DNA of 40,941 nucleotides. Origin: Bacillota bacterium (GTDB lineage: Bacteria > Bacillota > Sulfobacillia > UBA3575 > DUQP01). Shown here piece by piece: positions 2,954-40,071 of this stretch. Position numbers and translations under genes: made by a program. The stretch lies in NCBI GenBank assembly GCA_012837735.1, contig DUQP01000054.1, positions 1 to 40,941 of the forward strand, in the 5' to 3' direction. A model generated the notes under the pieces. That model was given only the letters and a program-made list of their open reading frames with translations, did no database searches and was not told the DNA's origin. Position 1 is the stretch's first letter; each line of letters starts with the position of its first letter.

Positions 2954-3430
2954 TTGAGGCATCGGGCCCGCGAGGTAGCCTTGCGCACATTGTTTCAGCT
3001 TGACCTCAGTAACGGAGATTTACAGGAGGCTTTCGCCGCCGCCCAGGAAGGGATCCCCTTGAATGAGGGGGGTGTCGAATTTGCGCGGCGCTTGGTGGAG
3101 GGGACTTTGGAAAATTTGCCGGGTTTCGATAAAAAAATCACTGGTTTAGTGCGGGCCTGGCGATTAGAGAGATTGGCCCGTGTAGACCACAATATTTTAC
3201 GCATGGCCTTTTTTGAAATTTATCACTGCCCTGATATCCCGATTGCCGTGACCATCAACGAAGCCGTCGAGCTGGCAAAAGAATACAACAGCGAAACGGC
3301 TGCCCGCTTCATTAACGGCATTTTAGGCAGTGTCGCCCGAGAACTGACCGGCACAGCTGAGGAAAGGAAACCAGCCGCGGAAAGCGAACTACAAGAAGAT
3401 CCAAAAGACGCACCCTACACACGGGAATGA
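2954..3430 (+). CDS. nusB: transcription antitermination factor NusB
   Basis: NusB, an all-helical RNA-binding protein that joins NusE (S10) at boxA for rRNA antitermination. The sequence begins RHRAREVALRTLFQ and ends with the family's INEAVELAKEYNS and ARFINGILGS signatures; the length, about 158 residues, is normal. An ATG at 2936 is in frame, but the GGGAGGG at 2940-2946 gives a 7-nt spacing to the TTG at 2954, which also matches where family members begin; either start is possible. The last ~25 residues are charged and variable. The stop overlaps an in-frame ATG of the next gene, so translation may be coupled. Confidence 0.95.
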   Translation: MRHRAREVALRTLFQLDLSNGDLQEAFAAAQEGIPLNEGGVEFARRLVEGTLENLPGFDKKITGLVRAWRLERLARVDHNILRMAFFEIYHCPDIPIAVTINEAVELAKEYNSETAARFINGILGSVARELTGTAEERKPAAESELQEDPKDAPYTRE

Positions 3431-3450
3431 AAGAGCGGAGGGGTTTGTTC

Positions 3451-5724
3451 GTGTATAAGATTGTTGCCAAACGTGTGTTGAACCCGATTACAAAGCTGTT
3501 TTTGATTGATGCGCCCATGGTAGCTAAACGGGCACAACCGGGGCAGTTCGTGATCGTGCGGACACATCCGGACGGTGAGCGAATCCCGCTCACTATTGCG
3601 GATTACGACCGGGAGCAGGGTACCGTCACGATCGTTTTTCAAGAGGTGGGCAAGACCACCCGCCTGCTAGGTTCATTCCAAGCGGGAGATGAATTGGAGG
3701 ACTTCGTTGGCCCCTTAGGCGTGCCAATGGAGCTGCCGGAGGCGGGACCGGTGTTGTGTGTGGCGGGCGGGGTGGGGGTGGCTCCCATTTATCCTAAAGC
3801 TCGTGCTCTTTACGAACGGGGGATCGAAGTAATCAGCGTGATCGGCGCCCGTAGTGCCGACTTATTGGTGTTCGAAGAAGAGATGCGCTCCGTTTCCAAA
3901 GAACCATACATTACCACTGATGACGGCTCGCGGGGCGAAAAGGGGCTTGTCACCGACGTGGTAAGACGATTGTTAGCAGCAGGGCATCCGTTTGCGGAAG
4001 CGATCGCGATTGGGCCTCCGGTGATGATGAAGGCCACCTGTGATGTGACAAGGGAATTTGGACTCAAGACCCTGGTTAGCCTTGATCCGATTATGGTGGA
4101 CGGGACGGGAATGTGTGGGGCCTGCCGGGTGACAATCGCCGGCGAGACAAAATTTTGCTGCGTGGATGGGCCAATTTTCAACGGACATGATGTGGACTGG
4201 GAGGAGCTGGCGAAACGCAAGACGATGTATCGGGATCAGGAGCAGATCAGCATTGCCCATCAATGCCGCTGTAGCACTCACGCCCATGCAGAACAGGTGG
4301 CTGCCCGGGAAGAAGGGGCAGCCCGAAACAGGGGTCGCGTGCCGATGCGCACCCAGGATGCGCAGCTAAGAAGGCGCAACTTCGGCGAAGTGGCGGTGGG
4401 ATATTCAGAAGAGGAAGCCCGGGAAGAAGCGGCCCGCTGTTTGAACTGCAAGAACCCGCTTTGCCGCCAGGGATGCCCGGTGGAGGTGCAAATACCGGAT
4501 TTTATCTGCCAAATAACCGCCGGGGATTATGCCGGAGCATACCAGACGATCTTGGAAACGAACAGCTTACCGGCTGTCTGTGGGCGGGTATGCCCGCAAG
4601 AATCCCAGTGTGAAGCGACCTGCATATTGGCTAAAAAAGGCCAACCAGTGGCGATCGGCCGCTTGGAACGGTTCGTGGCGGATTGGAGCCGGGCGCAAAC
4701 CGATTCGGTTACCGATTCCCCCCGGGACAAGGACAAAGGGCGTGTGGCGGTGATTGGCGCTGGCCCGGCCGGCCTGACATGCGCCGGGGACCTGGCCAGG
4801 AAAGGTTATGCGGTGACAATTTACGAGGCTTTACACGCGCCGGGCGGGGTATTGATTTATGGTATTCCGGAATTCCGGCTGCCGAAGGAGATTGTGCAAG
4901 CGGAGGTGGAGTATGTCCGCTCCCTGGGCGTGGAGGTCGTTCTCAATGCGGTAATCGGTCGTACCCTGACCCTGGATGATCTATGGGAGATGGGCTATGA
5001 TGCTATTTTCCTTGGTACGGGAGCCGGGCTGCCTCGCTTTATGGGCATTCCGGGAGAAAACTTGCTGGGCGTGTATTCCGCCAATGAATACTTGACACGC
5101 ATCAATTTAATGAAAGCCTACCGGTTTCCCGACAGCGACACCCCGATTCGTTCCGGGCGGCGTGTGGTGGTGGTTGGGGGTGGTAATGTGGCGATGGATT
5201 CCGTGCGCTGTGCGTTGCGCCTGGGAGCACAAGACGCTGTAATTGTCTATCGGCGTTCAGAAGCGGAGATGCCGGCCCGGTTGGAGGAAGTGGAGCATGC
5301 CAAGGAAGAGGGCGTGCAGTTCGAATTCTTGACAAATCCGACCGCCATTTTACCTGATGAGAACGGTTGGGTGCGCGGTATGGTCTGCCAGCGGATGAAA
5401 CTTGGTGAACCAGATGCGTCTGGTCGCCGTCGCCCGGTGCCTGTGCCGGATTCGGAGTTTGTAATTGAATGCGATACCGTCGTGATGGCGCTGGGGACAA
5501 AACCGAATCCGCTTTTGACCTCCCAGTTGGGCGGTCTGGAATTGACCAAATGGGGTGGAATCGTGGCCGATGAAGAAACCGGCGCCACCACTTTACCGGG
5601 GGTGTATGCGGGCGGGGATGCCGTGACGGGCGCCGCCACTGTGATTCAGGCTATGGGGGCCGGGAAAAAGGCTGCTAAGGCGATTCACGAGTTCATTGCC
5701 GGCAAGAGCCGAAGGGAGGAATAA
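3451..5724 (+). CDS. fused NfnA-NfnB-type bifurcating transhydrogenase (DHOD-B-like/GltD-like)
   Basis: About 757 residues joining two proteins that are usually separate. The N-terminal ~270 residues are NfnA/PyrK-like: an FAD-binding barrel, an NAD-binding domain (CVAGGVGVAPIYP) and a [2Fe-2S] motif with D217, C222, C225 and C237. This Asp-Cys-Cys-Cys spacing (+5, +8, +20) matches the unusual Asp-ligated cluster of Thermotoga NfnA. The remaining ~465 residues are NfnB/GltD-like: two Cys groups (CLNCKNPLCRQGC, then CGRVCPQESQCEATC), FAD site VIGAGPAGLTCA and NADPH site VVVGGGNVAMDS. Known NfnAB complexes couple NADH and reduced ferredoxin to NADP+ reduction. GTG at 3451 follows GGAGGGG at 7 nt; an ATG at 3427 is the alternative. 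The following folD uses NADP(H). The protein could instead act as a sulfide dehydrogenase (SudAB) or glutamate synthase small chain. Confidence 0.9.
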   Translation: MYKIVAKRVLNPITKLFLIDAPMVAKRAQPGQFVIVRTHPDGERIPLTIADYDREQGTVTIVFQEVGKTTRLLGSFQAGDELEDFVGPLGVPMELPEAGPVLCVAGGVGVAPIYPKARALYERGIEVISVIGARSADLLVFEEEMRSVSKEPYITTDDGSRGEKGLVTDVVRRLLAAGHPFAEAIAIGPPVMMKATCDVTREFGLKTLVSLDPIMVDGTGMCGACRVTIAGETKFCCVDGPIFNGHDVDWEELAKRKTMYRDQEQISIAHQCRCSTHAHAEQVAAREEGAARNRGRVPMRTQDAQLRRRNFGEVAVGYSEEEAREEAARCLNCKNPLCRQGCPVEVQIPDFICQITAGDYAGAYQTILETNSLPAVCGRVCPQESQCEATCILAKKGQPVAIGRLERFVADWSRAQTDSVTDSPRDKDKGRVAVIGAGPAGLTCAGDLARKGYAVTIYEALHAPGGVLIYGIPEFRLPKEIVQAEVEYVRSLGVEVVLNAVIGRTLTLDDLWEMGYDAIFLGTGAGLPRFMGIPGENLLGVYSANEYLTRINLMKAYRFPDSDTPIRSGRRVVVVGGGNVAMDSVRCALRLGAQDAVIVYRRSEAEMPARLEEVEHAKEEGVQFEFLTNPTAILPDENGWVRGMVCQRMKLGEPDASGRRRPVPVPDSEFVIECDTVVMALGTKPNPLLTSQLGGLELTKWGGIVADEETGATTLPGVYAGGDAVTGAATVIQAMGAGKKAAKAIHEFIAGKSRREE

Positions 5725-8075: not shown

Positions 8076-8966
8076 TTGGAACAGGGTTTGTCGAACTACT
8101 TGCAAGAACGGGCGGCGATGGTTGAACAGACACTACAGGAACTGTTACCTGCTGCGGAAGTCGTGCCCGGCATTTTGCATGAGGCGATGCGCTATAGCAC
8201 TTTCGCTGGTGGCAAACGGTTGCGGCCGATTTTATGCCTGGCGGGGGCGGAATTGGTGGGCGGTAGGCCGGAAATAGTGCGGGAAGCGGCGTGTGCTTTG
8301 GAAATGATTCACACGTATTCGCTGATTCATGATGATCTACCTTGCATGGATGATGATGATCTGCGCCGGGGACGCCCAACTAACCACCGCGTTTTTGGAG
8401 AGGCGGTGGCGGTTTTAGCCGGGGACGCTTTATTGACGCTCGCTTTTCAAATTCTGGCAACATACCCCGCCCAAGTGCCGGCCGAGCGGCGTTGCCGAGT
8501 GGTGCAGTTTGTGGGTGAGGCGTCAGGTTCCCTGGGCATGGTCGGGGGGCAGGTGCTGGATCTGGAGGGTGAAGGCCAGCGACTGAGCAGGGCAGAAATG
8601 CAACAGATGCATGCCAGCAAGACAGGTCGTCTTTTGCGGGCCGCGCTTTGCAGCGGGGGCATCCTGGCCGGGGCGAGCCCTAGGGAAATCAAGGCTATGG
8701 ATGATTATGCGGCGGCCTTCGGTTTGGCTTTTCAAATCACGGATGATATCCTGGATGTAACGGGTAATGTGGAGAAGCTGGGCAAAGCCCCTGGCAGCGA
8801 CCAGCGCAAGGAAAAAGCCACCTATCCAGCATTGTTTGGGTTGGATGCCTCCCGGCGGATGGCGGCTGAAATGGTGGCGCGGGCTACGGCGGCCTTGCAG
8901 GAATTTGGTGCACGGGCTGAAATATTGAAACAACTGGCCATCTTTCTTCTTGAGCGTGAGCAATAA
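8076..8966 (+). CDS. ispA: polyprenyl (farnesyl/geranylgeranyl) diphosphate synthase
   Basis: A chain-elongating prenyltransferase that condenses isopentenyl diphosphate with DMAPP or GPP, supplying isoprenoids for the cell wall carrier and quinones. The first Asp-rich motif is DDLPCMDDDDLRRG (about residues 86-99) and the second is DDILD (about 222-226); the GGKRLRP substrate motif is near residue 46. Length 296. It starts with TTG behind a GGAGGG site. It ends the nusB-to-ispA run; the OLE RNA follows after ~170 bp. Genes for isoprenoid synthesis on both sides of OLE are the typical arrangement. The exact product length cannot be fixed from sequence alone. Confidence 0.95.
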   Translation: MEQGLSNYLQERAAMVEQTLQELLPAAEVVPGILHEAMRYSTFAGGKRLRPILCLAGAELVGGRPEIVREAACALEMIHTYSLIHDDLPCMDDDDLRRGRPTNHRVFGEAVAVLAGDALLTLAFQILATYPAQVPAERRCRVVQFVGEASGSLGMVGGQVLDLEGEGQRLSRAEMQQMHASKTGRLLRAALCSGGILAGASPREIKAMDDYAAAFGLAFQITDDILDVTGNVEKLGKAPGSDQRKEKATYPALFGLDASRRMAAEMVARATAALQEFGARAEILKQLAIFLLEREQ

Positions 8967-9041: not shown

Positions 9042-9070
9042 TTGTCGCACCGAAATGTTTGTGTTAATAT
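9042..9070 (+). promoter_or_regulatory. candidate sigma-A promoter for the OLE RNA
   Basis: TTGTCG (9042-9047), a 17-nt spacer and TAATAT (9065-9070) would start transcription near 9077, about 60 nt before the terminal stem of the RNA. The -10 box matches 4 of 6 positions and the -35 box 4 of 6. The RNA may also be cut out of a longer ispA transcript. Confidence 0.4.
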
Positions 9071-9138
9071 AAAGTTGGCAAAAAAGATCCAAAAACTCAA
9101 TATTGCAAATCATGAACCGCTTAAAAATGTTCATTAGA

Positions 9139-9735
9139 GCGGTCGGTGGTGCAGTATCCTAGTCGCGGTCTGCGTCCCTGAAGGCGGGCCTAAAAATCCG
9201 TCACGGGCACAACGATGAAGTTCCTGGTGGCGGCTGCCGAAGCCCAGTCGGGGGTCGTTGCTGGGAGTTAAGAAGGCGGGGCGATCTACAACGGCATGTA
9301 GGCGTGGACCCTGCCTTCGCGGAGGCCCAGGCTTGTGGTGGGAGGGAACCATTACGGGCTGGGGGATGAACCTGCATGCGGTGAAAAGCTGTGTGCAGTG
9401 TAGCCTGCCTTGAGCGGGGACGGTGGAGGAAAGCAAAGTGGAAGGAACCGGCGGGGCCCCGAAGGTTCCGGTCCAATTTCTAAAACCGGCTCTGCAAAAG
9501 AGGCTAGGGGGCGAAGTGACTGCGGAGAGGAAAGCTCCTAGGCTGTTCGCTGTCAGCGAGGTGAACCGGGGATTACAGTGTGGTCTAAGTGGCAATCCAG
9601 CACCGCAGGCGGCGACGTAGCGGGTGTGGGCTGAAAGGGAAACCGTCATCATGGTGACGTGATGGCGTCCACACGGGAAATCATGCTGGACCTCAAGCCG
9701 CAACGTTTACTCGGTTTTGCTACCACCGATCCAGA
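9139..9735 (+). ncRNA. ole: OLE RNA (ornate, large, extremophilic RNA)
   Basis: About 600 nt without a credible gene, placed between ispA and the oapA-dxs pair, the classic site for OLE RNA. Its ends pair: TCGGTGGT (9143-9150) with ACCACCGA (9722-9729), extended by 2 bp on each side past single bulges. G-rich, hairpin-dense sequence fills the interior, for example GTCATCATGGTGAC near 9645-9658. Base bias and length differ from the flanking spacers. OLE RNAs form a ribonucleoprotein at the membrane with OapA, whose gene follows. Known work in Halalkalibacterium (Bacillus) halodurans links the complex to cold, ethanol and magnesium stress. A strong terminator sits directly after the 3' end. The identification rests on position, size, closing stem and the neighbouring protein; no covariance search was run. 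Confidence 0.9.
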
Positions 9736-9743
9736 ATTGATGC

Positions 9744-9767
9744 GGGGGCCAATGGGCCCCTTTTTTT
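9744..9767 (+). terminator. intrinsic terminator of the OLE RNA
   Basis: Stem GGGGCC (9745-9750) / GGCCCC (9755-9760) with the loop AATG, followed by seven T residues. It lies 9 nt past the closing stem of the RNA and about 50 nt before oapA, so oapA and dxs need read-through or their own promoter. Confidence 0.9.
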
Positions 9768-9815
9768 GTCTTTACAGCATCCCAATTGGTCAAGCTAACA
9801 CGAAGGAGACTTGAT

Positions 9816-10454
9816 GTGAGTAACTGGGGAAAACGCTTCCTGCGGCAGGGTCTGGTGATTGGGGCGACCACGGCCGTGATAGCGATCATGATTGCGGCTC
9901 CGGCCGGGGCGGTCACGGAGCGACAAACGATTTACGTGGCCTTACCGCTCTTGCTGTTGATTATCCTAATTGGAATTATATTTGACATTGTCGGGGTGGC
10001 GGCAGCAGCGGTATCTGAAACCCCGTTTCACGCCATGGCCGCCAAGCGAGTGCCGGCGGCCCGGACTGCCATTCGACTCGTTCGTCATGCTGATCGCGTG
10101 GTGTCGATCAGCTGCGATGTGGTGGGAGACCTGACCGGTACAATTAGCGGCGCGGCAGGAGCGGCGATTGCAGTCAGGTTGGCGGGCATGGGTGGTTGGG
10201 AACCCAGCCTGGTTAGCTTATTTATGATTGCCGGTATCGCTGGCCTGACGGTGGGTGGAAAAGCTGCTGGGAAGGGTTTGGCATTAAATCGTTGTGTGGA
10301 GATCATCCTGCGGGTTGCCACTGTAATACATATCTTGGAACGATTGTTCCATTTTGAGCTTTATGGTCAGCGCCCGCGCGCTAAGACGCATAAGGACAAG
10401 CAGGGAAACGGCCGCGGTCAACGAAACCATAAGGGAAAATTGGAAAAAGATTAG
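9816..10454 (+). CDS. oapA: OLE-associated protein OapA, membrane protein
   Basis: A protein of about 212 residues with four hydrophobic segments (roughly residues 11-33, 38-62, 115-140 and 147-168) and a very basic C-terminal tail suited to RNA binding (QRPRAKTHKDKQGNG). Between segments two and three lies the conserved-looking loop SETPFHAMAAKRVPAAR followed by LVRHADRV and DVVGDLTG. This loop resembles DUF21-type membrane domains, as described for OapA. Family members bind OLE RNA and hold it at the membrane. The GTG at 9816 is chosen because AAGGAGA lies 6 nt upstream; the longer reading from a TTG at 9786 would translate the SD site itself. It lies between the OLE terminator and dxs, the typical location. 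Confidence 0.9.
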   Translation: MSNWGKRFLRQGLVIGATTAVIAIMIAAPAGAVTERQTIYVALPLLLLIILIGIIFDIVGVAAAAVSETPFHAMAAKRVPAARTAIRLVRHADRVVSISCDVVGDLTGTISGAAGAAIAVRLAGMGGWEPSLVSLFMIAGIAGLTVGGKAAGKGLALNRCVEIILRVATVIHILERLFHFELYGQRPRAKTHKDKQGNGRGQRNHKGKLEKD

Positions 10455-10484
10455 GGGTAATGGATTAAAAAGTGGGGGATGCGG

Positions 10485-12374
10485 ATGGCCCAGCTGGATG
10501 ACATTAAAGGCCCCGGGGATTTACGGGGATTGACGACGGCCCAGTTGACTGACCTGGCTGACCAACTGCGCCGCCGCATCATTGAAACAGTGGCCGAAAC
10601 AGGTGGGCATCTGGCCTCAAATCTTGGTGTCGTGGAGCTCACCCTGGCATTGCATACGGTCTTTGACAGTCCGAGCGATAGACTGATTTGGGATGTGGGA
10701 CATCAAAGTTATACCCATAAATTGATTACCGGACGTGCGGACCGGTTCGCTACCCTGCGTCAATATGGTGGGTTGAGTGGCTTTCCGAAGCGCAGTGAAA
10801 GCCCTCATGATGCCTGTGAGACCGGCCACAGCAGCACGTCAATTTCGGTTGCCCTCGGCATAGCCACCGCGCGCGATCTCAAAGGAGAAAAATATTCTGT
10901 CGTGGCTGTAATTGGTGATGGGTCGCTAACAGCCGGGATGGCTTTTGAAGCACTTAATCACGCCGGCGAAGCCGGGCGCGATCTCTTGGTCGTACTGAAC
11001 GATAACAGCATGTCCATCTCGGCCAATGTCGGCGGATTGCCCTCTTATCTAAGCCGGATCCGTACTGATCCGGCCTATTACCGTGTAAAGGCGGATGTGG
11101 AGGCCGCCCTGCGCAAGATTCCGGCGGTCGGACCGTCTGTGGCGCGGGCGGCGGAACGAATCAAGGATAGCTTGAAATACCTGGTGGTGCCGGGTGTGGT
11201 GTTTGAAGAACTAGGTTTTACTTATCTGGGGCCGATCGACGGGCATAACATTCCTGCCCTGCAGGAGGTGTTCCGCCGGGCCAGGCAAACAAGCGGGCCG
11301 GTGTTGGTACACGTGATCACGGAAAAGGGACGCGGTTATGAGCCGGCGGTGCGGGAGCCGGATATCTTTCACGGTATCGGTCCGTTTGACGTTGTCAGTG
11401 GCAGGCCGATCAAAAAACCATCCCCACCAAGCTATACCGAGGTGTTCGGTTCTCAACTGGTGGAGCTAGCCGAAAACGAACCGCGGTTGGTGGCGGTGAC
11501 GGCCGCGATGAGTGATGGGACAGGTCTGAAAGAATTTGCCAGGCGTTTTCCGGAGCGATTCTTTGATGTGGCGATTGCTGAACAACACGCCGTCACCTTT
11601 GCCGCCGGGTTGGCAAGAGCCGGTTTGCGGCCGGTGGTCGCTATCTATTCCACATTTCTGCAACGTTCTTATGATCAAATCGTACACGATGTCTGTTTGT
11701 CCCGCTTGCCGGTTATATTTGCGATCGATAGGGCCGGGCTGGTGGGACAGGATGGTGAAACGCACCAGGGTGCCTTTGACATTCCCTACCTGCGCCATAT
11801 CCCCAATATGTGCTTAATGGCACCGGCGGACGAGAATGAACTGCGACACATGCTCGCCACCGCATTGGCCCTGGACGGGCCGGTGGCCATCCGCTACCCG
11901 CGTGGGCCTGGGGTCGGGGTGCCTTTAGAGGGTGGCGCGCACGCGTTGCCAGTGGGAAAAGCGGTTTTGTTGCGTTCTGGATCCGATCTGGCAATCATTG
12001 CTTTAGGACAACCGGTGGCTGCCGCCCTGGAAGCGTCCGAGCAGCTGCGGCGACAGGGAATCAGTGCCAGTGTCGTGAACGCGCGCTGGGTTAAGCCTTT
12101 AGATGAAAACCTGTTGCTGGAGCTGGCTCGCGGTACCGGAAATCTATTGACGGTGGAAGATGGCGCGGGCCAGGCCGGATTTGGCAGCGCCGTTTTGGAG
12201 ACTTTAGCCAGGCATGGCGTGGCGGCCCGGGTGGCTTGCCTCGCTTTGCCGGATGAATTTGTGCCCCACGGCTCGCAAATGGAGTTGCGGCGGGCGGTGG
12301 GGATCGACAGCCAAGGGATCGCCGCTAAGGCTCAAGAACTACTTCAGGATAGAGTGCGGGAGCGGCGGGCCTAA
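10485..12374 (+). CDS. dxs: 1-deoxy-D-xylulose-5-phosphate synthase
   Basis: Thiamine-diphosphate enzyme joining pyruvate and glyceraldehyde-3-phosphate, the first step of the MEP isoprenoid route. Marks include [13 protein letters not shown], the TPP motif [18 protein letters not shown] near residue 145, GPIDGHN, the catalytic-Glu region [11 protein letters not shown] and the transketolase C-terminal domain. Length about 629 residues. The GGGGG run fits the second ATG (10485) better than the first (10479). It shares the locus with ispA, so early and late isoprenoid steps flank the OLE RNA. The stop TAA overlaps the ATG of tlyA. Confidence 0.97.
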
Positions 12375-16831: not shown

Positions 16832-17614
16832 TTAAGAAGCCTTGCTTTCCAAGCGCAACTTGTCCGCTACCATGGCAATGAATTCGGAATTGGTCGGTTT
16901 GCCGCGTTCGCGGCTGATAGTGTATCCGAATAAAGCGTTGATCACTTCCATATTGCCCCGGTTCCAAGCCACCTCAATGGCATGCCGGATTGCCCGCTCG
17001 ACTCGGCTGGGAGTGGTGTGGTGCTTTTTGGCCACCGACGGATACAACTCTTTTGTGATCGCTCCCAGCAAATCCACCCGGTTGATAACCATGATGATGG
17101 CGTCGCGCAGATAAATATAGCCTTTAATATGGGCGGGGATGCCGATTTCATGAATGGCGTTTGTGACCTCCACGTCTATGTTGCGCGTGCGCGGCATAGC
17201 CGGGCGCTGTGCCGTTACTTGCCCCTTTGCCACCAAGCGGACCCGTTCTGCCAGGACATCCAAATTGAATGGTTTTAGAATATAATAGTCCGCGCCGAGA
17301 TGCAAAACTTTTTGCGTGAACGATTCTTGGCCGAAAGCGGTCAGCATAATCACCTTGGGCCGGCGAGGCAGTTCCATTGCGTTCAACCTTTCCAAAACGC
17401 CGATGCCATCCAAATGAGGCATAATTATGTCGAGCAAGATGACATCCGGAATTTGATCTGGTCTTTCCTTGGCCAGATACTGAATGACCTCCAGACCGTT
17501 AAACGCCACGGCGCTGACTTGGCACTGGGGTTGAGAATTGAAGTGGTCTTTGAGTAACTCGCAAAACTCGCGGTTGTCATCCGCGATCATAATACGAATG
17601 ATTTCATCTGCCAT
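16832..17614 (-). CDS. spo0A: sporulation master response regulator Spo0A
   Basis: A 260-residue phosphorelay response regulator that starts sporulation. The receiver domain has acidic pocket D12/D13, the phospho-acceptor D62 in VILLDIIMP, a Thr in MLTAFG and the Lys in ILKPFN. The C-terminal DNA-binding domain (about residues 145-260) carries the Spo0A-specific [32 protein letters not shown] and [10 protein letters not shown] segments. An AAGGAGG SD site lies upstream. As in Bacillus, spoIVB lies upstream on the same strand. A candidate sigma-H promoter with an overlapping 0A-like box is listed separately. Confidence 0.98.
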
Positions 17615-17649
17615 TAAACAAAAACCTCCTTGTCACTGGGTGAGTAGTG

Positions 17650-17679
17650 AGTTTCGACGCGCCAAGAAGGTTTTCCTTT
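17650..17679 (-). promoter_or_regulatory. candidate sigma-H promoter with 0A-box-like sites upstream of spo0A
   Basis: On the minus strand AAAGGAAAA (17671-17679) is followed after 12 nt by GTCGAAACT (17650-17658), close to the sigma-H pattern RnAGGAwWW-N11-12-RnnGAATWW. The -10 part overlaps CGTCGAA (17653-17659), a 6/7 match to the 0A box TGTCGAA. A second 6/7 match, AGTCGAA, lies at 17728-17734. A TATAAT at 17753-17758 (minus) may be the -10 of a vegetative promoter but lacks a -35. Confidence 0.5.
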
Positions 17680-17762
17680 TGGAGCAATTGCCGTACATTT
17701 CGCAAAATCACCCATTTTTCTCCGCAATTCGACTAAAAACGCCCATGTGGTAATTATATCCG

Positions 17763-19094
17763 CTAGGAGGCAGCTGCCCCCTCCCCAAAAATATTATCCT
17801 GCCAAAGTCCGCATTCCCTAACCATCCATTCAATGAAAACTCCATAACCACGTGTCGGATCGTTTACCATAACATGTGTCACCGCACCCACCAGGCGCCC
17901 ATCCTGGATGATCGGACTGCCGCTCATCCCTTGCACGATCCCACCTGCTTTTTGCAACAGACGTTCATCTGTTACTTTGATAATCAAACCTTTGCCGGCC
18001 GGCTGCTGCTGCTGATAAACGCGGCTGATTTCCACGGCATAACGCTCTGGACGATCTCCCTGCAGAACAGTGATAATTTCCGCCGGTCCAGTGTGCACCT
18101 CGGTAGCGAGCGCGATCGGCACCGGATGGGCGATGCAATGCTCCCTGGGACGTTCTTGCAAGTGCCCGCTGATGCCAAAGATGGTATTCTGTTCAATTGT
18201 CCCGGAGAACTCTGTTTGGGCTTTGAAAACCCCGATTTTTTCCCCAGGCACCCCTGCCACACCTTCCTGGATTCCAGAGATGGAAGCCTTTACAATTCGA
18301 CCTGAGCGCACTGGCAAGGGCTCTTCAGATTGTTCGCCCACGATCGGATGGCCGAGGGCAGCATATGTCTTGGTTTCGGGGTCGTAGAATGTCAGAGTGC
18401 CGACACCGGCCGAACCATCTTTCACATACAGACCAAGGCGGAAAATATCGTCCTGACCCTGGACCGGCTTGACTTGCAAATGTAGTTGGCGGCCTGCGCG
18501 TTGGATTGTGAGGCGGACTGGGTTTTGCTTATGCCCGGAATGTTGCACGATACTGGTCAGCTGCTCAATTGTGATGAGAATTTGTCCATTGGCACGCAAA
18601 ATCAGATCGCCTTGTTTGATGCCGGCCTGGCGGCTGGGACTGGCCACAGTGCCCGACTCTGTGGCAAGATCAGCGTAACCTACCACCAGTAACCCAGACG
18701 ATCTCACTAACACTCCAATCGAATGTCCTCCCGGCACAACATTGATGCGTGGTACCACATCAACTACCACGCGCCGCCAGGGGATAAAGCCAAACAGTCG
18801 CATTTCCAACACTGTACTGCCGACTTGATGCGGGGTGACAGTAAGAGGAGCGCCAGGCACGATTTTCCAGCCATTGGACAGGTCGCGTCCCTGGACTTCC
18901 AAAATGCCTTCTTGAGCCGATTTGACATAAGTTGTGAAGGGCAATGCAGGCTTAATTTCCTGCAATTGTCCCTGTGATAATCTGATATGATCGGGAAACA
19001 TGATAATACCTTGCAACGGTGTACTGACCGTGAGCAAGAGCACAACGGCAATCAACAATAGACCGAACGGTTTCCGGCATGGTTTTGAATTCAT
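17763..19094 (-). CDS. spoIVB: SpoIVB serine peptidase (sigma-K checkpoint)
   Basis: A 443-residue secreted peptidase that signals from the forespore to activate SpoIVFB processing of pro-sigma-K. An N-terminal membrane/signal segment (about residues 10-30) is followed by a beta-rich region, a PDZ domain (about 115-210, around SRQAGIKQGDLILRANGQ) and the S55 peptidase domain. The catalytic His is in ALGHPIV (near residue 248) and the Ser in GMSGSPII (near 391). The SD site is weak. Whether all sigma-K pathway members exist in this organism cannot be judged from the window. It is followed by spo0A in the same direction, the standard order. Confidence 0.96.
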   Translation of the reverse strand: MNSKPCRKPFGLLLIAVVLLLTVSTPLQGIIMFPDHIRLSQGQLQEIKPALPFTTYVKSAQEGILEVQGRDLSNGWKIVPGAPLTVTPHQVGSTVLEMRLFGFIPWRRVVVDVVPRINVVPGGHSIGVLVRSSGLLVVGYADLATESGTVASPSRQAGIKQGDLILRANGQILITIEQLTSIVQHSGHKQNPVRLTIQRAGRQLHLQVKPVQGQDDIFRLGLYVKDGSAGVGTLTFYDPETKTYAALGHPIVGEQSEEPLPVRSGRIVKASISGIQEGVAGVPGEKIGVFKAQTEFSGTIEQNTIFGISGHLQERPREHCIAHPVPIALATEVHTGPAEIITVLQGDRPERYAVEISRVYQQQQPAGKGLIIKVTDERLLQKAGGIVQGMSGSPIIQDGRLVGAVTHVMVNDPTRGYGVFIEWMVRECGLWQDNIFGEGAAAS

Positions 19095-33034: not shown

Positions 33035-33655
33035 ATGTATAGATTACGGCAACGTTTTTTCGATCACATCGAGGCCCATCTGGGCTTGTATGTGTTCACC
33101 ACCTTACTGGCGGCAGTGGGGATTGCCTTTGGTGCCCTGGCCGTGGAAGCGCTGGGCGCAGGGCAAAAATTAGAGCTAATCGAATACTTACAGGGTTTTC
33201 TGGGCAGTTTGGAGCTAACCGATAACGGCTACAACCCACTGGCAGCCCTGGCTTTTGCCCTGGGCATGAATCTAAAGACGATCGCCGCGATCTGGTTTCT
33301 GGGGCTGACGGTGGTGGGGGCGCCAATGGTGGCTCTGGTGGTTTTCCTGCGCGGTTTCTTAATCGGTTTTAGTGTTGGTTTGCTGGTCAGTGAAATGGGT
33401 TTCTCCGGGATATTAATCGCGTTGACCGCTGTGCTGCCACATAACCTGCTTGCGGTACCGGTTCTCATCATGGCTGCAACCAGTGCCTTCGGTTTTTCCT
33501 TTCAGCTCGTGCAAAGTCGCTTGCGCGGTGAACGCGTTTTTTACGCGCAGTTTCTTTCCTATACCGCTGTGCTCACCTGCTGTGCTTTCCTCTTGTGTTT
33601 GGCCAGCCTGTTCGAAAGTTACCTGACACCGCTTTTGGTCCGGATGGCGACATAA
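33035..33655 (+). CDS. spoIIM: stage II sporulation protein M
   Basis: A 206-residue integral membrane protein with five or so hydrophobic segments (about residues 15-38, 68-88, 95-125, 130-155 and 178-198). SpoIIM forms the DMP complex with SpoIID and SpoIIP in engulfment. Sequence marks: NPLAALAFALGMNLKTIAA and TAVLPHNLLAVPVLI (each seen in part). ATG start behind AAGGA. Position before xerD and deoB matches the Bacillus order, without the fur gene that lies there in B. subtilis. Confidence 0.93.
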   Translation: MYRLRQRFFDHIEAHLGLYVFTTLLAAVGIAFGALAVEALGAGQKLELIEYLQGFLGSLELTDNGYNPLAALAFALGMNLKTIAAIWFLGLTVVGAPMVALVVFLRGFLIGFSVGLLVSEMGFSGILIALTAVLPHNLLAVPVLIMAATSAFGFSFQLVQSRLRGERVFYAQFLSYTAVLTCCAFLLCLASLFESYLTPLLVRMAT

Positions 33656-33859
33656 ATTTCCTGAGGTGCAATAAAGGCCATGGATGCGGTTATGCTATGC
33701 CTGGACTGTCTTCAGCAGGAATTAATTGGTCGCACGGTGTAATCTGAAAGGCGACAAAATGCGCAGGTTTGGGAGTAAAGTACTCTCTTTGAGCCATAGT
33801 TCTATCAGCGGGCCCAAAAGCATAACATTAGGTAAACTGCCCTGGGGACGGTGACGACG
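33656..33859. other. spacer between spoIIM and a small ORF, no gene seen
   Basis: About 200 bp without a credible gene. A 20-codon reading from an ATG near 33681 is too short to support. No convincing promoter or hairpin terminator was found. Confidence 0.35.
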
Positions 33860-33982
33860 ATGTCGCGCCAACGGGTGGCGATTCTGGGCCGGATTGGGCT
33901 GCTGACGATAGTATTGGGTTGGACTTTAGTGCGGGTGATTACCCTGTGGGGCACCCTGGTTGCTGGCGGAGGTTTGCCATAA
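33860..33982 (+). CDS. candidate 40-residue single-pass membrane peptide
   Basis: The reading MSRQRVAILGRIGLLTIVLG starts a 40-residue peptide with a basic N-terminus and one hydrophobic helix (about residues 8-33), ending GGGLP and a TAA at 33980-33982. The SD-like GGTGA is 5 nt before the ATG; an in-frame GTG at 33851 is an alternative. In B. subtilis a small membrane-protein gene (yqzK) lies at the same place just before xerD, but sequence similarity to it is not evident. Confidence 0.5.
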   Translation: MSRQRVAILGRIGLLTIVLGWTLVRVITLWGTLVAGGGLP

Positions 33983-34091
33983 CAAGGATTTAGACGTTTT
34001 ATGTGGAAAAGATAGGATGCGCCTTTGCTCTGGAGGGAAAAACCAGGGGAAGAAGTAGCGTGAACGTTACCAATAAGAGGGGATGCGGGAC

Positions 34092-34979
34092 GTGCAGGCA
34101 TTGATCAAAGAATTTATAAACTATCTGGATGTGGAACGCGGTTTGGCCTCTAACACTTTAGAATCTTACGGCCGAGACCTGCGGCAATATTCGGAGTTTC
34201 TTGCCGGCGACGCTACCGGGTCCCTGGCGACCGCTTCCCGGGCCACAATCGTCACATATTTGTTACACCTGCAGAAACAAGGCAAGGCTACCGCCACCAT
34301 TGCCCGCCGTTTGGCGGCTTTAAAGGCCTTTTATCAGTTTTTGGTGCGGGAACAATATCTTGATCAAGATCCGACCGCCAACTTAGAATCACCCAAGCTG
34401 GAAAAACGCTTGCCGAGCGTCTTGACTGTGCAAGAAGTGGAGGCGCTTTTGCGGCAACCGGATCCCTCTGTTTCCGTTGGTTTGCGCGACCGGGCGATGC
34501 TGGAATTGTTATACGCCACTGGGATTCGCGTCTCGGAACTCGTGTCACTGGACATCGGTGATGTGAATCTGGAATTGAGTTTCTTGCGTTGTATGGGGAA
34601 AGGAGCGAAGGAGCGGATTGTACCGATGGGGAGCATGGCGATCCGGAGTGTGCGCGAGTATCTGCAAAATGGTCGCAGTCGTTTAGTGCGCCTGCCTGAG
34701 GAAACTGCCCTGTTTGTCAATCACCATGGACGCCGAATGACAAGGCAGGGATTTTGGAAAATCGTGAAAAAATACGCTAAGGACGCCAACATCAGGCAAG
34801 ATATTACCCCACACACGCTGCGACATTCCTTTGCCACCCATCTGCTTGAGAACGGCGCTGACTTGCGTTCTGTGCAGGAAATGCTGGGGCATGCCGACAT
34901 TTCCACCACTCAGATCTATACCCACCTGACACGCGGCCGTCTGAAAGAAGTGTATGCCAAAGCGCATCCGCGGGCCTGA
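34092..34979 (+). CDS. xerD: site-specific tyrosine recombinase XerD
   Basis: About 295 residues. It resolves chromosome dimers with XerC at dif. The N-terminal SAM-like domain (NYLDVERGLASNTLESYGRDL) is followed by the catalytic domain: Arg in TGIRVSELVSL, Lys near GKGAKERIVPMG, the HxxR in TPHTLRHSFATHLLENGADL (seen in part as HTLRHSFATH), the second His in LGHADISTTQIYTH, and the Tyr in that same string. The GTG at 34092 is 9 nt behind AGAGGGG; ATG 34083 is directly next to the SD site and less likely. A terminator follows. Confidence 0.95.
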   Translation: MQALIKEFINYLDVERGLASNTLESYGRDLRQYSEFLAGDATGSLATASRATIVTYLLHLQKQGKATATIARRLAALKAFYQFLVREQYLDQDPTANLESPKLEKRLPSVLTVQEVEALLRQPDPSVSVGLRDRAMLELLYATGIRVSELVSLDIGDVNLELSFLRCMGKGAKERIVPMGSMAIRSVREYLQNGRSRLVRLPEETALFVNHHGRRMTRQGFWKIVKKYAKDANIRQDITPHTLRHSFATHLLENGADLRSVQEMLGHADISTTQIYTHLTRGRLKEVYAKAHPRA

Positions 34980-35002
34980 GCGGGTTCATAACATAGCATC
35001 GT

Positions 35003-35027
35003 AAGAGCGGTCTGCCGCTCTTTTTTT
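35003..35027 (+). terminator. intrinsic terminator after xerD
   Basis: Stem AAGAGCGG (35003-35010) / CCGCTCTT (35015-35022) with loop TCTG and a seven-T tract. Confidence 0.92.
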
Positions 35028-35040
35028 GTTGGGACCGGGG

Positions 35041-35300
35041 ATTCCCAGCAGGGCGGGGTGTTTGCTCCCGGAAAACTACCAGGTTGGAGGTGGGGAGGAT
35101 GCCGGGACTGCCAGGCATTATTCATTTGCATTTCTCATTACGGCGTTTTCCTGCTCCTGCGCTGTACATCCTTGTATCGTGGGTTAGATCTCACGGGTGG
35201 TGTATTAGGAGCAATTGTGTTCAGTGCTTTGCTCGGTGTCTGGCGACCGACTGGGCACGGCCTGGGGAGCGATACAACGAGCAGGGTTGAGCCCAGCTGG
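35041..35300 (+). other. gene-poor spacer, possibly a decayed small membrane gene
   Basis: No intact, recognisable gene. A good SD site (GGAGGTGGGGAGG, 35086-35098) precedes an ATG at 35099 that reads MPGLPGIIHLHFSLRRF, but this frame loses protein-like character. A different frame further on reads GLDLTGGVLGAIVFSALLGV. Together they suggest a frameshifted membrane protein, or simply non-coding sequence. Confidence 0.3.
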
Positions 35301-35324
35301 TGACAGGGCGGTGGGCGCCCAGTC

Positions 35325-35333
35325 TGGTATAAT
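35325..35333 (+). promoter_or_regulatory. extended -10 promoter for deoB
   Basis: TGGTATAAT carries a consensus -10 (TATAAT, 35328-35333) with the TGn extension. No matching -35 lies at 17 bp; GTGACA at 35300-35305 is too far. The transcription start is predicted near 35340, about 26 nt before the ATG. Confidence 0.6.
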
Positions 35334-35365
35334 GTAGAAAGAACGCCGTGAAAGAAGGTGCTGCC

Positions 35366-36607
35366 ATGGCAACAGATATGGAACGCGCACTCTTGATTGT
35401 ACTTGATAGTATGGGGATCGGGGCTTTGCCCGATGCGGCTGAATACGGTGATCAGGGTAGTGATACGCTCGGCAATATCTGTCGAGCGGTGCCCGATCTG
35501 GCGTTGCCCAACCTGGCGGCGCTGGGGCTGGCCCGGATCACAGATTTACCATTGGGGGAGGAGGCCCAGCTTTTACCGGCCAAACGTCAACCAGGGGGCG
35601 GGTTTGGTCGCATGGCCACGGTCTCCCCGGCCAAAGACACGCTCACCGGGCACTGGGAGCTGATGGGCCTGATTACGGAACGTCCGTTTCAAACATTTCC
35701 GGAGGCTTTCCCTGAGGCGCTGATTGCGCTATTGGAGCAGGCTTGGGGTACGGTTAGCCTGGGTAACGAAGTGGCCCCAGGAACGGAGATCATCCAGCGC
35801 CTGGGGGCAGAACACATTGGCACAGGATACCCGATCATTTACACATCGGCGGACAGCGTGTTGCAAATCGCCGCCCATGAAGAAATAATTCCGGTGGCGA
35901 AGCTGTATGAGATGTGCGGTAGTGCCCGGCGGATCCTGGACGAGCACGGATTCTTTGTGGGGCGGGTGATCGCCCGCCCGTTCATAGGCGAACCGGGTCG
36001 CTTCGTGCGTACGGTAAGACGGCGCGATTTCAGCGTGCTACCGCACGGAGAGACGTTGCTGGATGTGCTGGCCAAGGCGGGCCGACATGTGCATGCGATT
36101 GGCAAAATCAAAGATATTTTCGGCGGGCGGGGCATCAGCAGCAGTCGCCCGACGCAGGGCAACCAGGATGGTATGGTCGCTTTGCGGGAAGCCCTGGACA
36201 AAATCCCGGCTGGCCTGATCTTTGCCAACCTGATCGATTTTGATATGCTGTATGGGCACCGGAATGATCCCCAGGGCTATGCCAGGGCCCTGCAGGAATT
36301 TGATGGTTTCTTGCCTGAACTATTGCAAACCCTTACTCCGAGGGAATTATTAATGATCGTGGCGGACCACGGCTGTGATCCGACAACAGAGAGTACCGAT
36401 CATTCCCGGGAATATGTGCCGCTGTTGGCGGCTTGGGGCCGCGCTGGCTCTGGCTGCGGGGGTGGCCTGGTGGACCTGGGGACACGGGAGAGCCTGGCCG
36501 ATGTGGCTGCCACTTTAGGAGAATTGTTTGGACTACCAGTTGGTCATCTAGCCGGCAGAAGTTGTGCTGCGGAATTGAGGGGGGAGCGCTTTGCTGGCGG
36601 TGAATGA
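35366..36607 (+). CDS. deoB: phosphopentomutase
   Basis: About 413 residues; interconverts ribose (or deoxyribose) 1- and 5-phosphates using two Mn ions. Alkaline-phosphatase-superfamily marks are VLDSMGIGALPDA with the metal Asp, the phospho-Thr in SPAKDTLTGHWE (near residue 91), and ADHGCDPTTESTDHSRE at the C-terminus. ATG 35366 follows AAGAAGGTG; a GTG at 35348 is less likely. Followed with overlap by the nucleoside phosphorylase whose product it uses. Confidence 0.96.
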   Translation: MATDMERALLIVLDSMGIGALPDAAEYGDQGSDTLGNICRAVPDLALPNLAALGLARITDLPLGEEAQLLPAKRQPGGGFGRMATVSPAKDTLTGHWELMGLITERPFQTFPEAFPEALIALLEQAWGTVSLGNEVAPGTEIIQRLGAEHIGTGYPIIYTSADSVLQIAAHEEIIPVAKLYEMCGSARRILDEHGFFVGRVIARPFIGEPGRFVRTVRRRDFSVLPHGETLLDVLAKAGRHVHAIGKIKDIFGGRGISSSRPTQGNQDGMVALREALDKIPAGLIFANLIDFDMLYGHRNDPQGYARALQEFDGFLPELLQTLTPRELLMIVADHGCDPTTESTDHSREYVPLLAAWGRAGSGCGGGLVDLGTRESLADVAATLGELFGLPVGHLAGRSCAAELRGERFAGGE

Positions 36608-37940
36608 ATTGATCAGGCGCAAACGGGATGGACAGGCCATTTCGGGGCCGGAAATGGAGGAGCTGATCGGGGCTTATGCCAATGGTGAGGTGCCGGATTA
36701 CCAAATGGCTGCCTGGCTGATGGCCGTCTACTTCCAAGGTTTGAGCCGGGGGGAGACTGTAGCCATGACAAGAGCGATGCTGAATTCCGGCGCTACGGTC
36801 GATATGGCGGATGTCCCGGGGATCAAGGTAGATAAGCACAGCAGTGGGGGCGTAGGCGACAAAACCAGCCTGGTGCTGCTCCCGTTGGTGGCCGCCGCCG
36901 GGGTACCGGTAGTGAAAATGGCCGGCCGCGGTCTGGGACACACGGGCGGTACGATCGACAAACTGGAGTCGGTGCCCGGCTTGCGCACAGAGTTGACGCC
37001 GCAGGAAGTGGTAACGGTGGCGGAGCGGGTCGGGCTTTGTATTGCGGCCCAGAGCAAGCAGTTGGTGCCGGCCGACGGGCGGCTGTATGCTTTGCGGGAT
37101 GTCACTGCCACGGTGGAGAGCGTGCCTTTAATTGCCGCCAGCATTATGAGCAAGAAGATTGCGGCGGGAGCGGATCGCATTCTGTTGGATGTCAAAACGG
37201 GCAAAGGAGCTTTTGCCCAGGACATGGATACAGCCCGGCAACTGGCGGAATTGATGGTGAGCATCGGCGCCGAGCTGGGGCGTACCACAGCAGCGCTGGT
37301 GACCGGGATGGATCAACCCCTGGGCTTAGCCGTAGGCAATGCTCTGGAGATGCATGAAGCGGTCATGACCCTGCGGGGCGCTGGTCCTGCTGATGTGCGC
37401 GAATTGTGCTTGGCACTGGGTGCCCTGATGTTAGCCATGGGCGGCCAGGAAACGGACTTGGCGAAAGGCCGGGCAAAATTAAAGGAATTATTATCAAGTG
37501 GTCAGGCTTTGACGGTGTTAAGGAAGATGGTTGCGGCTCAAGGCGGTGACACCGGGTTTATCGAGGCACCAGAACGGCTCCTCAGTGCCCCGGTGCGGCT
37601 GCCATTGGTGGCGGCCGAAACAGGTTATGTCTCTGAGGTGCATGCGCGCATCGTCGGTGACTGTGCGGTCAGGCTGGGGGCTGGCCGAATGCAAAAAGGG
37701 ACAAAAGTGGATCATCGGGTCGGTATCCTGCTGCATAAAAAAGTTGGTGCTCCAGTAATGAGAGGTGAATTGTTGGCGGAAGTGCATGCGGCGCAACCGG
37801 ACCGGGGGCAAGAGGCGCTTCCCCTGTTAAAAGACGCTTTTGTGATTACTGCCCAACCGCCGCAGCCTGCCGCTTTAGTGCGTGGATTTGTGACGCCGGA
37901 CGGGTTTTCACGCCAACTACCGAAAGAATTTAAGGTTTAG
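36591..37940 (+). CDS. pdp: pyrimidine-nucleoside phosphorylase
   Basis: A 449-residue enzyme of the thymidine/pyrimidine phosphorylase family that splits uridine and (deoxy)thymidine with phosphate. Family marks: VDKHSSGGVGDKTSLVLLP, KMAGRGLGHTGGTIDKLES (both seen in part), SKKIAAGADRILLDVKTG and the C-terminal hammerhead domain. TTG start behind GAGGGGGG, overlapping the deoB stop by 17 bases. Bacillus has a purine phosphorylase gene at this place, so this is a swapped salvage activity. Confidence 0.95.
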   Translation: MLAVNELIRRKRDGQAISGPEMEELIGAYANGEVPDYQMAAWLMAVYFQGLSRGETVAMTRAMLNSGATVDMADVPGIKVDKHSSGGVGDKTSLVLLPLVAAAGVPVVKMAGRGLGHTGGTIDKLESVPGLRTELTPQEVVTVAERVGLCIAAQSKQLVPADGRLYALRDVTATVESVPLIAASIMSKKIAAGADRILLDVKTGKGAFAQDMDTARQLAELMVSIGAELGRTTAALVTGMDQPLGLAVGNALEMHEAVMTLRGAGPADVRELCLALGALMLAMGGQETDLAKGRAKLKELLSSGQALTVLRKMVAAQGGDTGFIEAPERLLSAPVRLPLVAAETGYVSEVHARIVGDCAVRLGAGRMQKGTKVDHRVGILLHKKVGAPVMRGELLAEVHAAQPDRGQEALPLLKDAFVITAQPPQPAALVRGFVTPDGFSRQLPKEFKV

Positions 37941-37977
37941 GGTTGGGGTACCATATCCCCGTGAAGGAGGGGTTGAT

Positions 37978-39189
37978 ATGGTGCCGAGACTGTACCGAGC
38001 TTTGTTGGTGGCGCTCGTTTTTGCGGTTATGGTACTGCCGGCTGCGTCTGGATTGGCAGGGCCAGGGGAAGAAACTGAGTGGCTGACAAGCAGGACCCCC
38101 GGGTTCGACCTGCAGGCACCGGGAGCGGTACTGATGGATGGGACAAGTGGCCAGGTGATATTCGCCAAAGGGGCGGATGAGCCGCGCGCACCGGCCAGCC
38201 TTACAAAATTGATGACGCTGGTGTTGGTGTTTGACGCCCTGAAAGCCGGTCGGATTGGGATGGACGATGTGGTGGTTGCTAGTGAGCGAGCAAAACAGAT
38301 GGGAGGCTCCACCATCTTCCTGGATACCAATGAAAAAATCGCTCTGGAAGACCTTTTGAAAGGTGTAGCTATCTCATCAGGCAATGATGCCAGCGTTGCC
38401 CTGGCCGAGCATATCGCCGGCAGCGAAGCGGCGTTTGTGGCCATGATGAATGACAAGGCGACCAGTCTGGGGATGGAAAACAGCCACTTTGTCAACTGTC
38501 ATGGGATCGACGCCCCGGGTCATGTCATGAGCCCGATGGATGTGGCAATCCTAGCCCATTATGCAATCCAAAACCATCCCGAGCTGCTGGCCTATACCAG
38601 CATCTATGATGGCGGCTTTTTGCGACCAGGCACGAAAGAAGAATTCTGGCTGGTGAATACAAACAAGTTAGTGCGCTTTTACCCGGGCGCCGATGGCCTA
38701 AAAACCGGTTCTACAAATCAGGCCAAATATTGCGTGGCTGCTACCGCACAGCGTGAAAAAACGCGCATGATTGCGGTGATTATGGGAGCCCCGAATAGTA
38801 CCACGCGCTTTGCAGAAGCGCGGCAATTAATGGATTATGGTTTTGCCAACTATGTGACTATACCGGTTGTCCAAGCCGGTGAAGTCGTGCAGGCCGGGGT
38901 GCCGGTGGCGAAAGGCTCTCCGGCTACGGTTGACGTGGTGGCCGCCCGCGATCTATTGGTCACGATAGAAAAAGGCCGGGAACAAGCCATTGGCGAAGCG
39001 CAGGTGGAAATGGCACCTTTGTGTCCGCCGTTGCGGGACGATAGTGTGGTCGGCTCTTTGTTAGTGACAGATGATGCGGGCAATCTCCTGGGAAAGGTCG
39101 ACCTGGTGCCATGTCAAGATGTGCGGCGGGCTTCCCTGCCGTCCATGATCACGCGTGTATTGGGTTGGTTGTTTCCCTTCGTCCGCTAG
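37978..39189 (+). CDS. dacF: D-alanyl-D-alanine carboxypeptidase DacF
   Basis: A 403-residue penicillin-binding protein of the low-mass PBP5 type. A signal peptide (about residues 1-26), then the catalytic motifs SLTK (S74-K77), SGN (S134-N136) and KTG (K242-G244), a beta-rich C-terminal domain and an amphipathic C-terminal helix (VLGWLFPF) that could anchor it to the membrane. In Bacillus DacF acts in forespore cortex modification and is read into spoIIA. Here a strong terminator separates them. SD AAGGAGGGG precedes ATG 37978. Confidence 0.95.
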   Translation: MVPRLYRALLVALVFAVMVLPAASGLAGPGEETEWLTSRTPGFDLQAPGAVLMDGTSGQVIFAKGADEPRAPASLTKLMTLVLVFDALKAGRIGMDDVVVASERAKQMGGSTIFLDTNEKIALEDLLKGVAISSGNDASVALAEHIAGSEAAFVAMMNDKATSLGMENSHFVNCHGIDAPGHVMSPMDVAILAHYAIQNHPELLAYTSIYDGGFLRPGTKEEFWLVNTNKLVRFYPGADGLKTGSTNQAKYCVAATAQREKTRMIAVIMGAPNSTTRFAEARQLMDYGFANYVTIPVVQAGEVVQAGVPVAKGSPATVDVVAARDLLVTIEKGREQAIGEAQVEMAPLCPPLRDDSVVGSLLVTDDAGNLLGKVDLVPCQDVRRASLPSMITRVLGWLFPFVR

Positions 39190-39201
39190 GGCAAATTACT
39201 A

Positions 39202-39235
39202 AAGGGAGTGGTGCCGGTCACCACTCCCTTTTTTT
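39202..39235 (+). terminator. strong intrinsic terminator between dacF and spoIIAA
   Basis: A perfect 12-bp stem AAGGGAGTGGTG (39202-39213) / CACCACTCCCTT (39219-39230), 5-nt loop, followed by TTTTT. Confidence 0.95.
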
Positions 39236-39239
39236 GCCG

Positions 39240-39269
39240 GCAGGAAATCATCGTTTGACCGCAGAAGAG
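39240..39269 (+). promoter_or_regulatory. candidate sigma-H promoter of the spoIIA operon
   Basis: GCAGGAAAT (39240-39248), 12-nt spacer, GCAGAAGAG (39261-39269). It fits the sigma-H pattern RnAGGAwWW-N12-RnnGAATWW except at the T of GAAT and the final W. It starts right after the dacF terminator, as needed for separate spoIIA expression. No 0A box was clearly seen. Confidence 0.5.
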
Positions 39270-39304
39270 GGCAGGAAATTTCCGGTAGAGGGGTGCCAGG
39301 CTAG

Positions 39305-39649
39305 ATGATGGTGGAATGTCATTGGCAAGACCGGGCACTTGTGGTACGGCTACGTGGTGAGCTTGATATTGGTGGGGCTCAAGAACTGCGTGCCGTGGTA
39401 GACCCTGCCTGGGAGAACGGTGAGGCCCTGGCCATGATTTTCGATCTGAGCGGATTGACATTCATAGACAGCTCGGGTTTGGGGGCGATCCTGGGACGGT
39501 ACCGCCGGGTAGCGGAAAGTGGCGGCCGCACGATGCTGGTTGGATTGCCGGAAGGGATGCGGCGGCAACTGGAGATGGCTGGTTTATTGCGCTTGTTGCC
39601 CTTATTTGAGAGTTGCGAAGCTGCCCTGGCGGAGGGGATGGGGAAATGA
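39305..39649 (+). CDS. spoIIAA: anti-sigma F factor antagonist SpoIIAA
   Basis: A 114-residue STAS-domain protein that releases sigma-F by binding SpoIIAB. The regulatory Ser is S57 in FIDSSGLGAILG. Start at ATG 39305 or the adjacent ATG at 39308, behind AGAGGGG. The stop overlaps spoIIAB by ATGA. The gene order spoIIAA-spoIIAB-sigF is standard. Confidence 0.97.
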   Translation: MMVECHWQDRALVVRLRGELDIGGAQELRAVVDPAWENGEALAMIFDLSGLTFIDSSGLGAILGRYRRVAESGGRTMLVGLPEGMRRQLEMAGLLRLLPLFESCEAALAEGMGK

Positions 39650-40071
39650 ACAGGATGTGTTTGTCTTTTTTGAACCGGTCTGAAAATGTGGGACTGGCCA
39701 GGGTGGCAGTAGCAGCATTTGCCGCCGGGGGTGAGTTCACAGTCAGTGATTTGGAAGAAATCAAGGTGGCGGTGTCCGAGGCGGTCACGAATGCCGTCGT
39801 GCATGCCTACGGAACGGCGGACGGCGAAGTGACGGTAAGGTGCGAGTTGGGGGACGGCCGATTGGTGATCGAGGTGGAGGACAAGGGGCAGGGGATTGCG
39901 GACGTAGAACAAGCCCGCACCGCCTCCTTTTCAACTGATCCAGAACGGTTGGGGCTGGGATTCGTGTTTTTGGAATCATTTTCGGACCAGCTCGTGGTGG
40001 AATCCACCGTCGGCGTGGGGACACGGGTCAAAATGGTCAAGTTGTATCGGACGGGTGTGGAAGGGGAATGA
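39646..40071 (+). CDS. spoIIAB: anti-sigma F factor / serine kinase SpoIIAB
   Basis: A 141-residue GHKL-type ATP-binding protein that holds sigma-F inactive and phosphorylates SpoIIAA. The N-box is EAVTNAVVHAYG (about residues 45-56), the G1 box is VEDKGQGI (about 77-84), and a G2-like GLGFVFLESF follows near 105. ATG 39646 overlaps the spoIIAA stop; the upstream in-frame reading from 39613 is inside spoIIAA. The stop overlaps sigF. Confidence 0.97.
   Translation: MNRMCLSFLNRSENVGLARVAVAAFAAGGEFTVSDLEEIKVAVSEAVTNAVVHAYGTADGEVTVRCELGDGRLVIEVEDKGQGIADVEQARTASFSTDPERLGLGFVFLESFSDQLVVESTVGVGTRVKMVKLYRTGVEGE

Follow-up and report, generated by a model that had tools for sequence, protein, structure and literature searches.

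We found a full-length OLE RNA and, directly downstream of it, the gene of its partner protein OapA in the window, i.e., the whole stretch of 40,941 nucleotides that was analyzed. Taken as a whole, the locus is very probably a genuine ole-oapA locus, whose RNA would most likely serve as a membrane-held dimeric scaffold in adaptation to stress and Mg2+. It is an ordinary further member of a known and well-described family, in the usual setting of that family. The host is a deep-branching member of the Bacillota whose genome, probably a MAG, carries sporulation genes.

9130 to 9742, forward strand: full-length OLE RNA (RF01071), from a cmscan match of 465 bits and from covariation.

The cmscan match to Rfam RF01071 (E 1.6e-133) far exceeds the gathering score of that family (50 bits) and covers model positions 1 to 616 with no truncation. 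A preliminary description of this DNA had read the block as OLE RNA and had suggested the Rfam model as the check; the segment is indeed a genuine OLE RNA over its full length, and nothing we found speaks against this identity. OLE was the sole Rfam family matched in the window, and it is present in a single copy in its own genome (1.55 Mb, 67 contigs, 94.9% complete). We also considered that the block could be coding and rejected this, since neither of the open reading frames inside it, one of 189 aa on the opposite strand and one of 65 aa in sense, has any match in Pfam.

The structure of the RNA is backed by strong covariation among relatives. With the Rfam structure mapped onto the window, 145 of the 159 consensus pairs were standard, and stem P1 added 8 more. 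To count covariation, 28 sequences of the class (the window and 27 relatives) were aligned with MAFFT. Paired cells amount to 89.6% in this alignment, against 78.6% in shuffles and 41 to 46% in slid controls, and changes on both sides occur in 102 of 153 pairs. The covariation score is 0.394, compared with 0.194 for shuffled and 0.09 to 0.13 for slid versions, and none of 500 shuffles reached any of the pairing or covariation measures.

9143 to 9150, forward strand: 5' strand of stem P1, TCGGTGGT, one half of an exact inverted repeat (covarying helix 1).
9722 to 9729, forward strand: 3' strand of stem P1, ACCACCGA, the other half of the exact inverted repeat (covarying helix 1).

That the ends of the block pair had been noticed before; the two strands are exact complements and form the covarying stem P1, in which 6 of the 8 pairs changed on both sides and 98% of the cells pair across the 28 sequences. 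Helices 7 to 9, 13, 20, and 23 are present in the window, so that the OapB-binding region P12.2/P13 and the arms P7/P8/P9 are there, and the RNA is neither variant 1 nor variant 2. The 14 consensus pairs that are non-standard in the window, many of them in the variable arms P7/P8/P9, could be taken as signs of a decayed or non-functional remnant. This reading is extremely improbable: the match holds its 465 bits across the full length, the conserved nucleotides are intact, oapA is intact with its own ribosome-binding site, and all the partner genes are present (see below).

Well over 100 columns are invariant among the 28 divergent OLE sequences. Such conservation, together with the size and complexity of the RNA, resembles what is seen in large ribozymes (an argument made in PMC11332333), and it could mean that OLE is itself a ribozyme with catalysis as its main function, the proteins serving as chaperones and anchor. 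Yet the cited literature reports no catalytic activity, and sequence alone cannot show catalysis; we consider this explanation rather improbable.

The reading that we prefer, a dimeric scaffold, draws on the dimer-contact sequences. The OLE dimer is held together through its P4 (A-rich), P5.1/P6.1, and P9 (palindromic) loops (PMC12265935), and the published contact sequences CUAAAAAUCC, GCCCA, and GGCAU vary little or not at all among the 28 sequences.

9444 to 9469, forward strand: apical stem-loop of P9 with the self-complementary loop GGGGCCCC, a palindrome conserved in relatives.

In published OLE dimers, the P9 loop makes the intermolecular kissing contact (PMC12265935). Of 27 sequences, 25 have a 6-nt palindrome in the loop, where shuffles would give 6.6, and its letters differ by species (GGGCCC, TGGCCA, GAGCTC, GGCGCC, CGGCCG). 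The loop thus stays self-complementary while its letters vary, as a homodimeric kissing contact predicts. All three kinds of contact sequence (the A-rich P4, P5.1/P6.1, and palindromic P9 loops) are present and conserved, which suggests that this RNA may dimerize as well. Two relatives have OLE RNAs with full scores elsewhere and no palindromic kissing loop: the P9 arm is missing in G025 (L005:1501-2066) and shortened in G053 (L010:1501-2091). These RNAs provide a natural test of the need for the P9 dimer contact.

9075 to 9104, forward strand: tentative promoter-like site TTGGCA-18-AATATT upstream of OLE, from a consensus scan (9 of 12 matches).
9744 to 9766, forward strand: hairpin with a 7-bp stem followed by a T-run, a probable terminator between ole and oapA.

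The signals flanking the RNA are less distinctive. The consensus scan found three promoter-like patterns in the region against 0.8 expected; these hits are weak and not evidence of function. By eye, a second candidate promoter, TTGTCG-17-TAATAT, lies at 9042 to 9070. A terminator right behind the block had been part of the preliminary description, and a hairpin with a T-run does stand there (about -14.6 kcal/mol for the segment), but a pattern of this kind is no more frequent than chance predicts, with 2 found and 2.0 expected in the region. Because it is at chance level and absent from most relatives, among which the segment is mostly not conserved, we regard it as a local feature and rejected the terminator as a defining feature of OLE.

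8076 to 8966, forward strand: ispA, farnesyl diphosphate synthase, the upstream neighbor of ole (NF045485, 378 bits, cut-off 275).
10479 to 12374, forward strand: dxs (TIGR00204, 855 bits).

The genes around the RNA follow the order xseA-xseB-ispA-ole-oapA-dxs-tlyA, a 177-aa open reading frame, nadK, and argR, then recN (recognized by eye) and spo0A. The gene-free block of about 600 nt that had been placed between isoprenoid genes is therefore present, between ispA and dxs. These surroundings, from xseAB to recN and spo0A, are usual for OLE, and ole and oapA often have dxs as immediate neighbor (PMC10898510). Hence, the claim that the locus offers a new host context was overstated: the neighborhood is the usual one and has already been described, and OLE is present in 56 of the 61 genomes sampled from the class. 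Two observations concern other parts of the window. A single open reading frame of 765 aa (3427 to 5724) looks by eye like an NfnA/SudB-like FAD/NAD-binding protein fused to a GltA/NfnB-like subunit. Sporulation genes are kept despite the small genome of 1.55 Mb: besides Spo0A, which has a search match, the stretches 16832 to 19094 and 33035 to 40766 encode, by eye, SpoIVB, a SpoIIM-like protein, DacF, SpoIIAB, and a sporulation sigma factor.

Compared with the OLE RNAs of Halalkalibacterium halodurans and Clostridium acetobutylicum, the RNA in the window has the same full-length match to the model, the same stems P1 to P13, the same dimer-contact sequences, oapA directly downstream, and isoprenoid neighbors. 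It differs in being G+C-rich, in a P1 of 8 uninterrupted pairs, in having its own terminator-like hairpin ahead of oapA, and in its host, a deep-branching member of the Bacillota whose genome has 1.55 Mb.

9816 to 10454, forward strand: oapA, OLE-associated protein A, 212 aa, with a GTG start after AAGGAG (CNNM match, alignment, and fold).

The gene begins 73 nt past the OLE match and encodes the four-helix protein with a basic tail that had been noted and named OapA, an assignment that now rests on a weak CNNM match, 39 aligned relatives, a CNNM-like fold, and a pair of aspartates. The protein scores 20.5 bits against CNNM (PF01595), below the cut-off of 28.4; in Pfam we found no domain in its 212 aa besides this sub-threshold match, and neither CBS nor CorC_HlyC domains. 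Sub-threshold similarity to CNNM is the published behavior of OapA (PMC11332333). In an alignment of 40 OapA proteins (alignment A2), the one in the window is 28 to 48% identical to the other 39, and most of the relatives from the class are encoded directly beside an OLE RNA. Residues D57, G60, D101, G104, D105, G112, and K149 are invariant in all 40. D101 and D105 match in spacing D100 and D104 of H. halodurans, the residues changed in OapA-PM1 (D100A/D104A; PMC9723947). The four long helices, the basic C-terminal tail, the sub-threshold CNNM match, and the invariant aspartate pair are thus shared with known OapA.

A direct sequence search of OapA against solved structures gave no meaningful match, so we used a fold search instead. 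The AlphaFold model (mean pLDDT 89) has long helices at residues 3 to 36, 39 to 65, 92 to 126, and 130 to 158. The top five PDB hits found with it by Foldseek are all CNNM transporters, including 7m1t, 7m1u, and 7cff, with TM-scores up to 0.54 and a probability of 1.00 for four of the five; their E-values range from 0.02 to 0.75, none reaching 0.001. The predicted model thus shares the transmembrane-domain fold of CNNM/CorC/MpfA Mg2+ transporters, whereas OapA differs from them in lacking CBS and CorC_HlyC domains and in its Pfam score below the cut-off; by profile, OapA and CNNM/MpfA are clearly apart. Because the Foldseek E-values are only 0.02 to 0.75, we describe OapA as a protein with a predicted CNNM-like fold, not as a member of the CNNM/MpfA family.

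The search for OapB and OapC elsewhere in the genome, proposed in the preliminary description, yielded both homologs. OapB is a KOW protein, encoded between map and infA in an operon of translation genes, that matches PDB 7k9b, "OLE-associated protein B" (E 2.5e-12). The OapC/YbxF homolog, a kink-turn protein of the L7Ae family, is encoded between rpoC and rpsL and matches the YbxF structures 4lck and 3v7e (about 2.7e-17). The same genome also encodes bS21. MpfA was not found, there being no CNNM protein besides OapA in the 94.9%-complete draft, and this absence is uncertain because about 5% of the genome is missing from the draft. All the known partners (OapA, OapB, OapC, and bS21) are thus encoded in just 1.55 Mb, with no MpfA found.

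Across the class, OapA occurs in exactly the same 56 genomes as OLE. MpfA is present in all four near-complete genomes that lack OLE (G006, G013, G031, G048) and in 10 of the 56 that have it, an anticorrelation with p 0.002 by genome and 0.049 by family, uncorrected for relatedness and with the OLE-less genomes belonging to two families. Of the five genomes whose OLE is shortened (below 320 bits), four carry MpfA, but these represent two independent families only. The shortened or divergent RNAs of G005, G030, G047 (f6), and G060 (f40) score 272 to 306 bits, and each of these genomes has one or two MpfA genes.

These patterns bear on a further hypothesis, already published (PMC11332333), by which the particle is mainly an RNA-controlled transporter of Mg2+ (divalent ions), with OapA as channel or exporter, OLE as its regulator, and the whole replacing MpfA. 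The weak sequence similarity of OapA to CNNM, its CNNM-like predicted fold, the failure to find MpfA in this genome, and the anticorrelation in the class all point this way. On the other hand, no Foldseek hit reaches E 0.001, 10 of the 56 genomes with OLE have MpfA too, the cited papers do not demonstrate transport by OapA, and the known phenotypes are broader than Mg2+. We regard this explanation as possible, although unlikely. A stronger form, in which the OLE ribonucleoprotein is, in this class, the MpfA-type Mg2+ export system of the cell, and the RNA, not OapA, is what is fixed at the ispA-dxs operon, is suggested because lineages without OLE keep MpfA and those with shortened OLE carry it too; we find it doubtful.

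The membrane-held scaffold would work in this host most likely as proposed from studies of H. halodurans and Clostridium, from which we infer its transcription, dimerization, membrane location, and function. There, OLE is an RNA dimer held at the membrane by OapA, with OapB, OapC, and bS21 bound (PMC12265935, PMC12286853, PMC12054373), and acts in cold, alcohol, Mg2+, and carbon-source stress (PMC10898510). Here, the RNA would most likely be made from its own promoter, as part of the operon, or both, ending at the hairpin at 9744 to 9766. Two molecules would dimerize by means of the P4 (A-rich and conserved), P5.1/P6.1, and palindromic P9 loops, and an OapA dimer would hold them at the membrane. 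The expected binding sites of the other proteins are P12.2/P13 for OapB, the kink turn for OapC, and P6 for bS21. Such a particle would help the cell to adapt to stress and to a load of Mg2+, and it could plausibly stand in, to some extent, for MpfA, the Mg2+ exporter that was not found here.

Few bacterial RNAs whose biochemical function is not known are as large as OLE, and one extra copy changes little. The value of the finding, low to moderate, lies mainly in the natural variants among relatives, which amount to natural experiments (ole and oapA unlinked, the P9 arm missing, OLE-less lineages with MpfA) and thereby inform the question of which parts the particle needs. A record named "Acetobacteraceae" with an OapA gene (L043, JAIMBG010000109.1) hinted at a transfer of OLE to Proteobacteria. 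We rejected this because the contig of this record (8,534 bp) coincides with one in G011 (C206), a genome of the same class as the window; the MAG behind the record is probably misnamed or mixed. Five of the 56 genomes, from three families (G008, G027, G033, G045, G058), have ole and oapA at separate loci. In family f28 (ole in L004 and L015, oapA in L109 and L110) and in G008 (L009), the RNA still lies between ispA and dxs and oapA is elsewhere, in f28 beside genes that look by eye like those of an ABC transporter and an Fe-S oxidoreductase.
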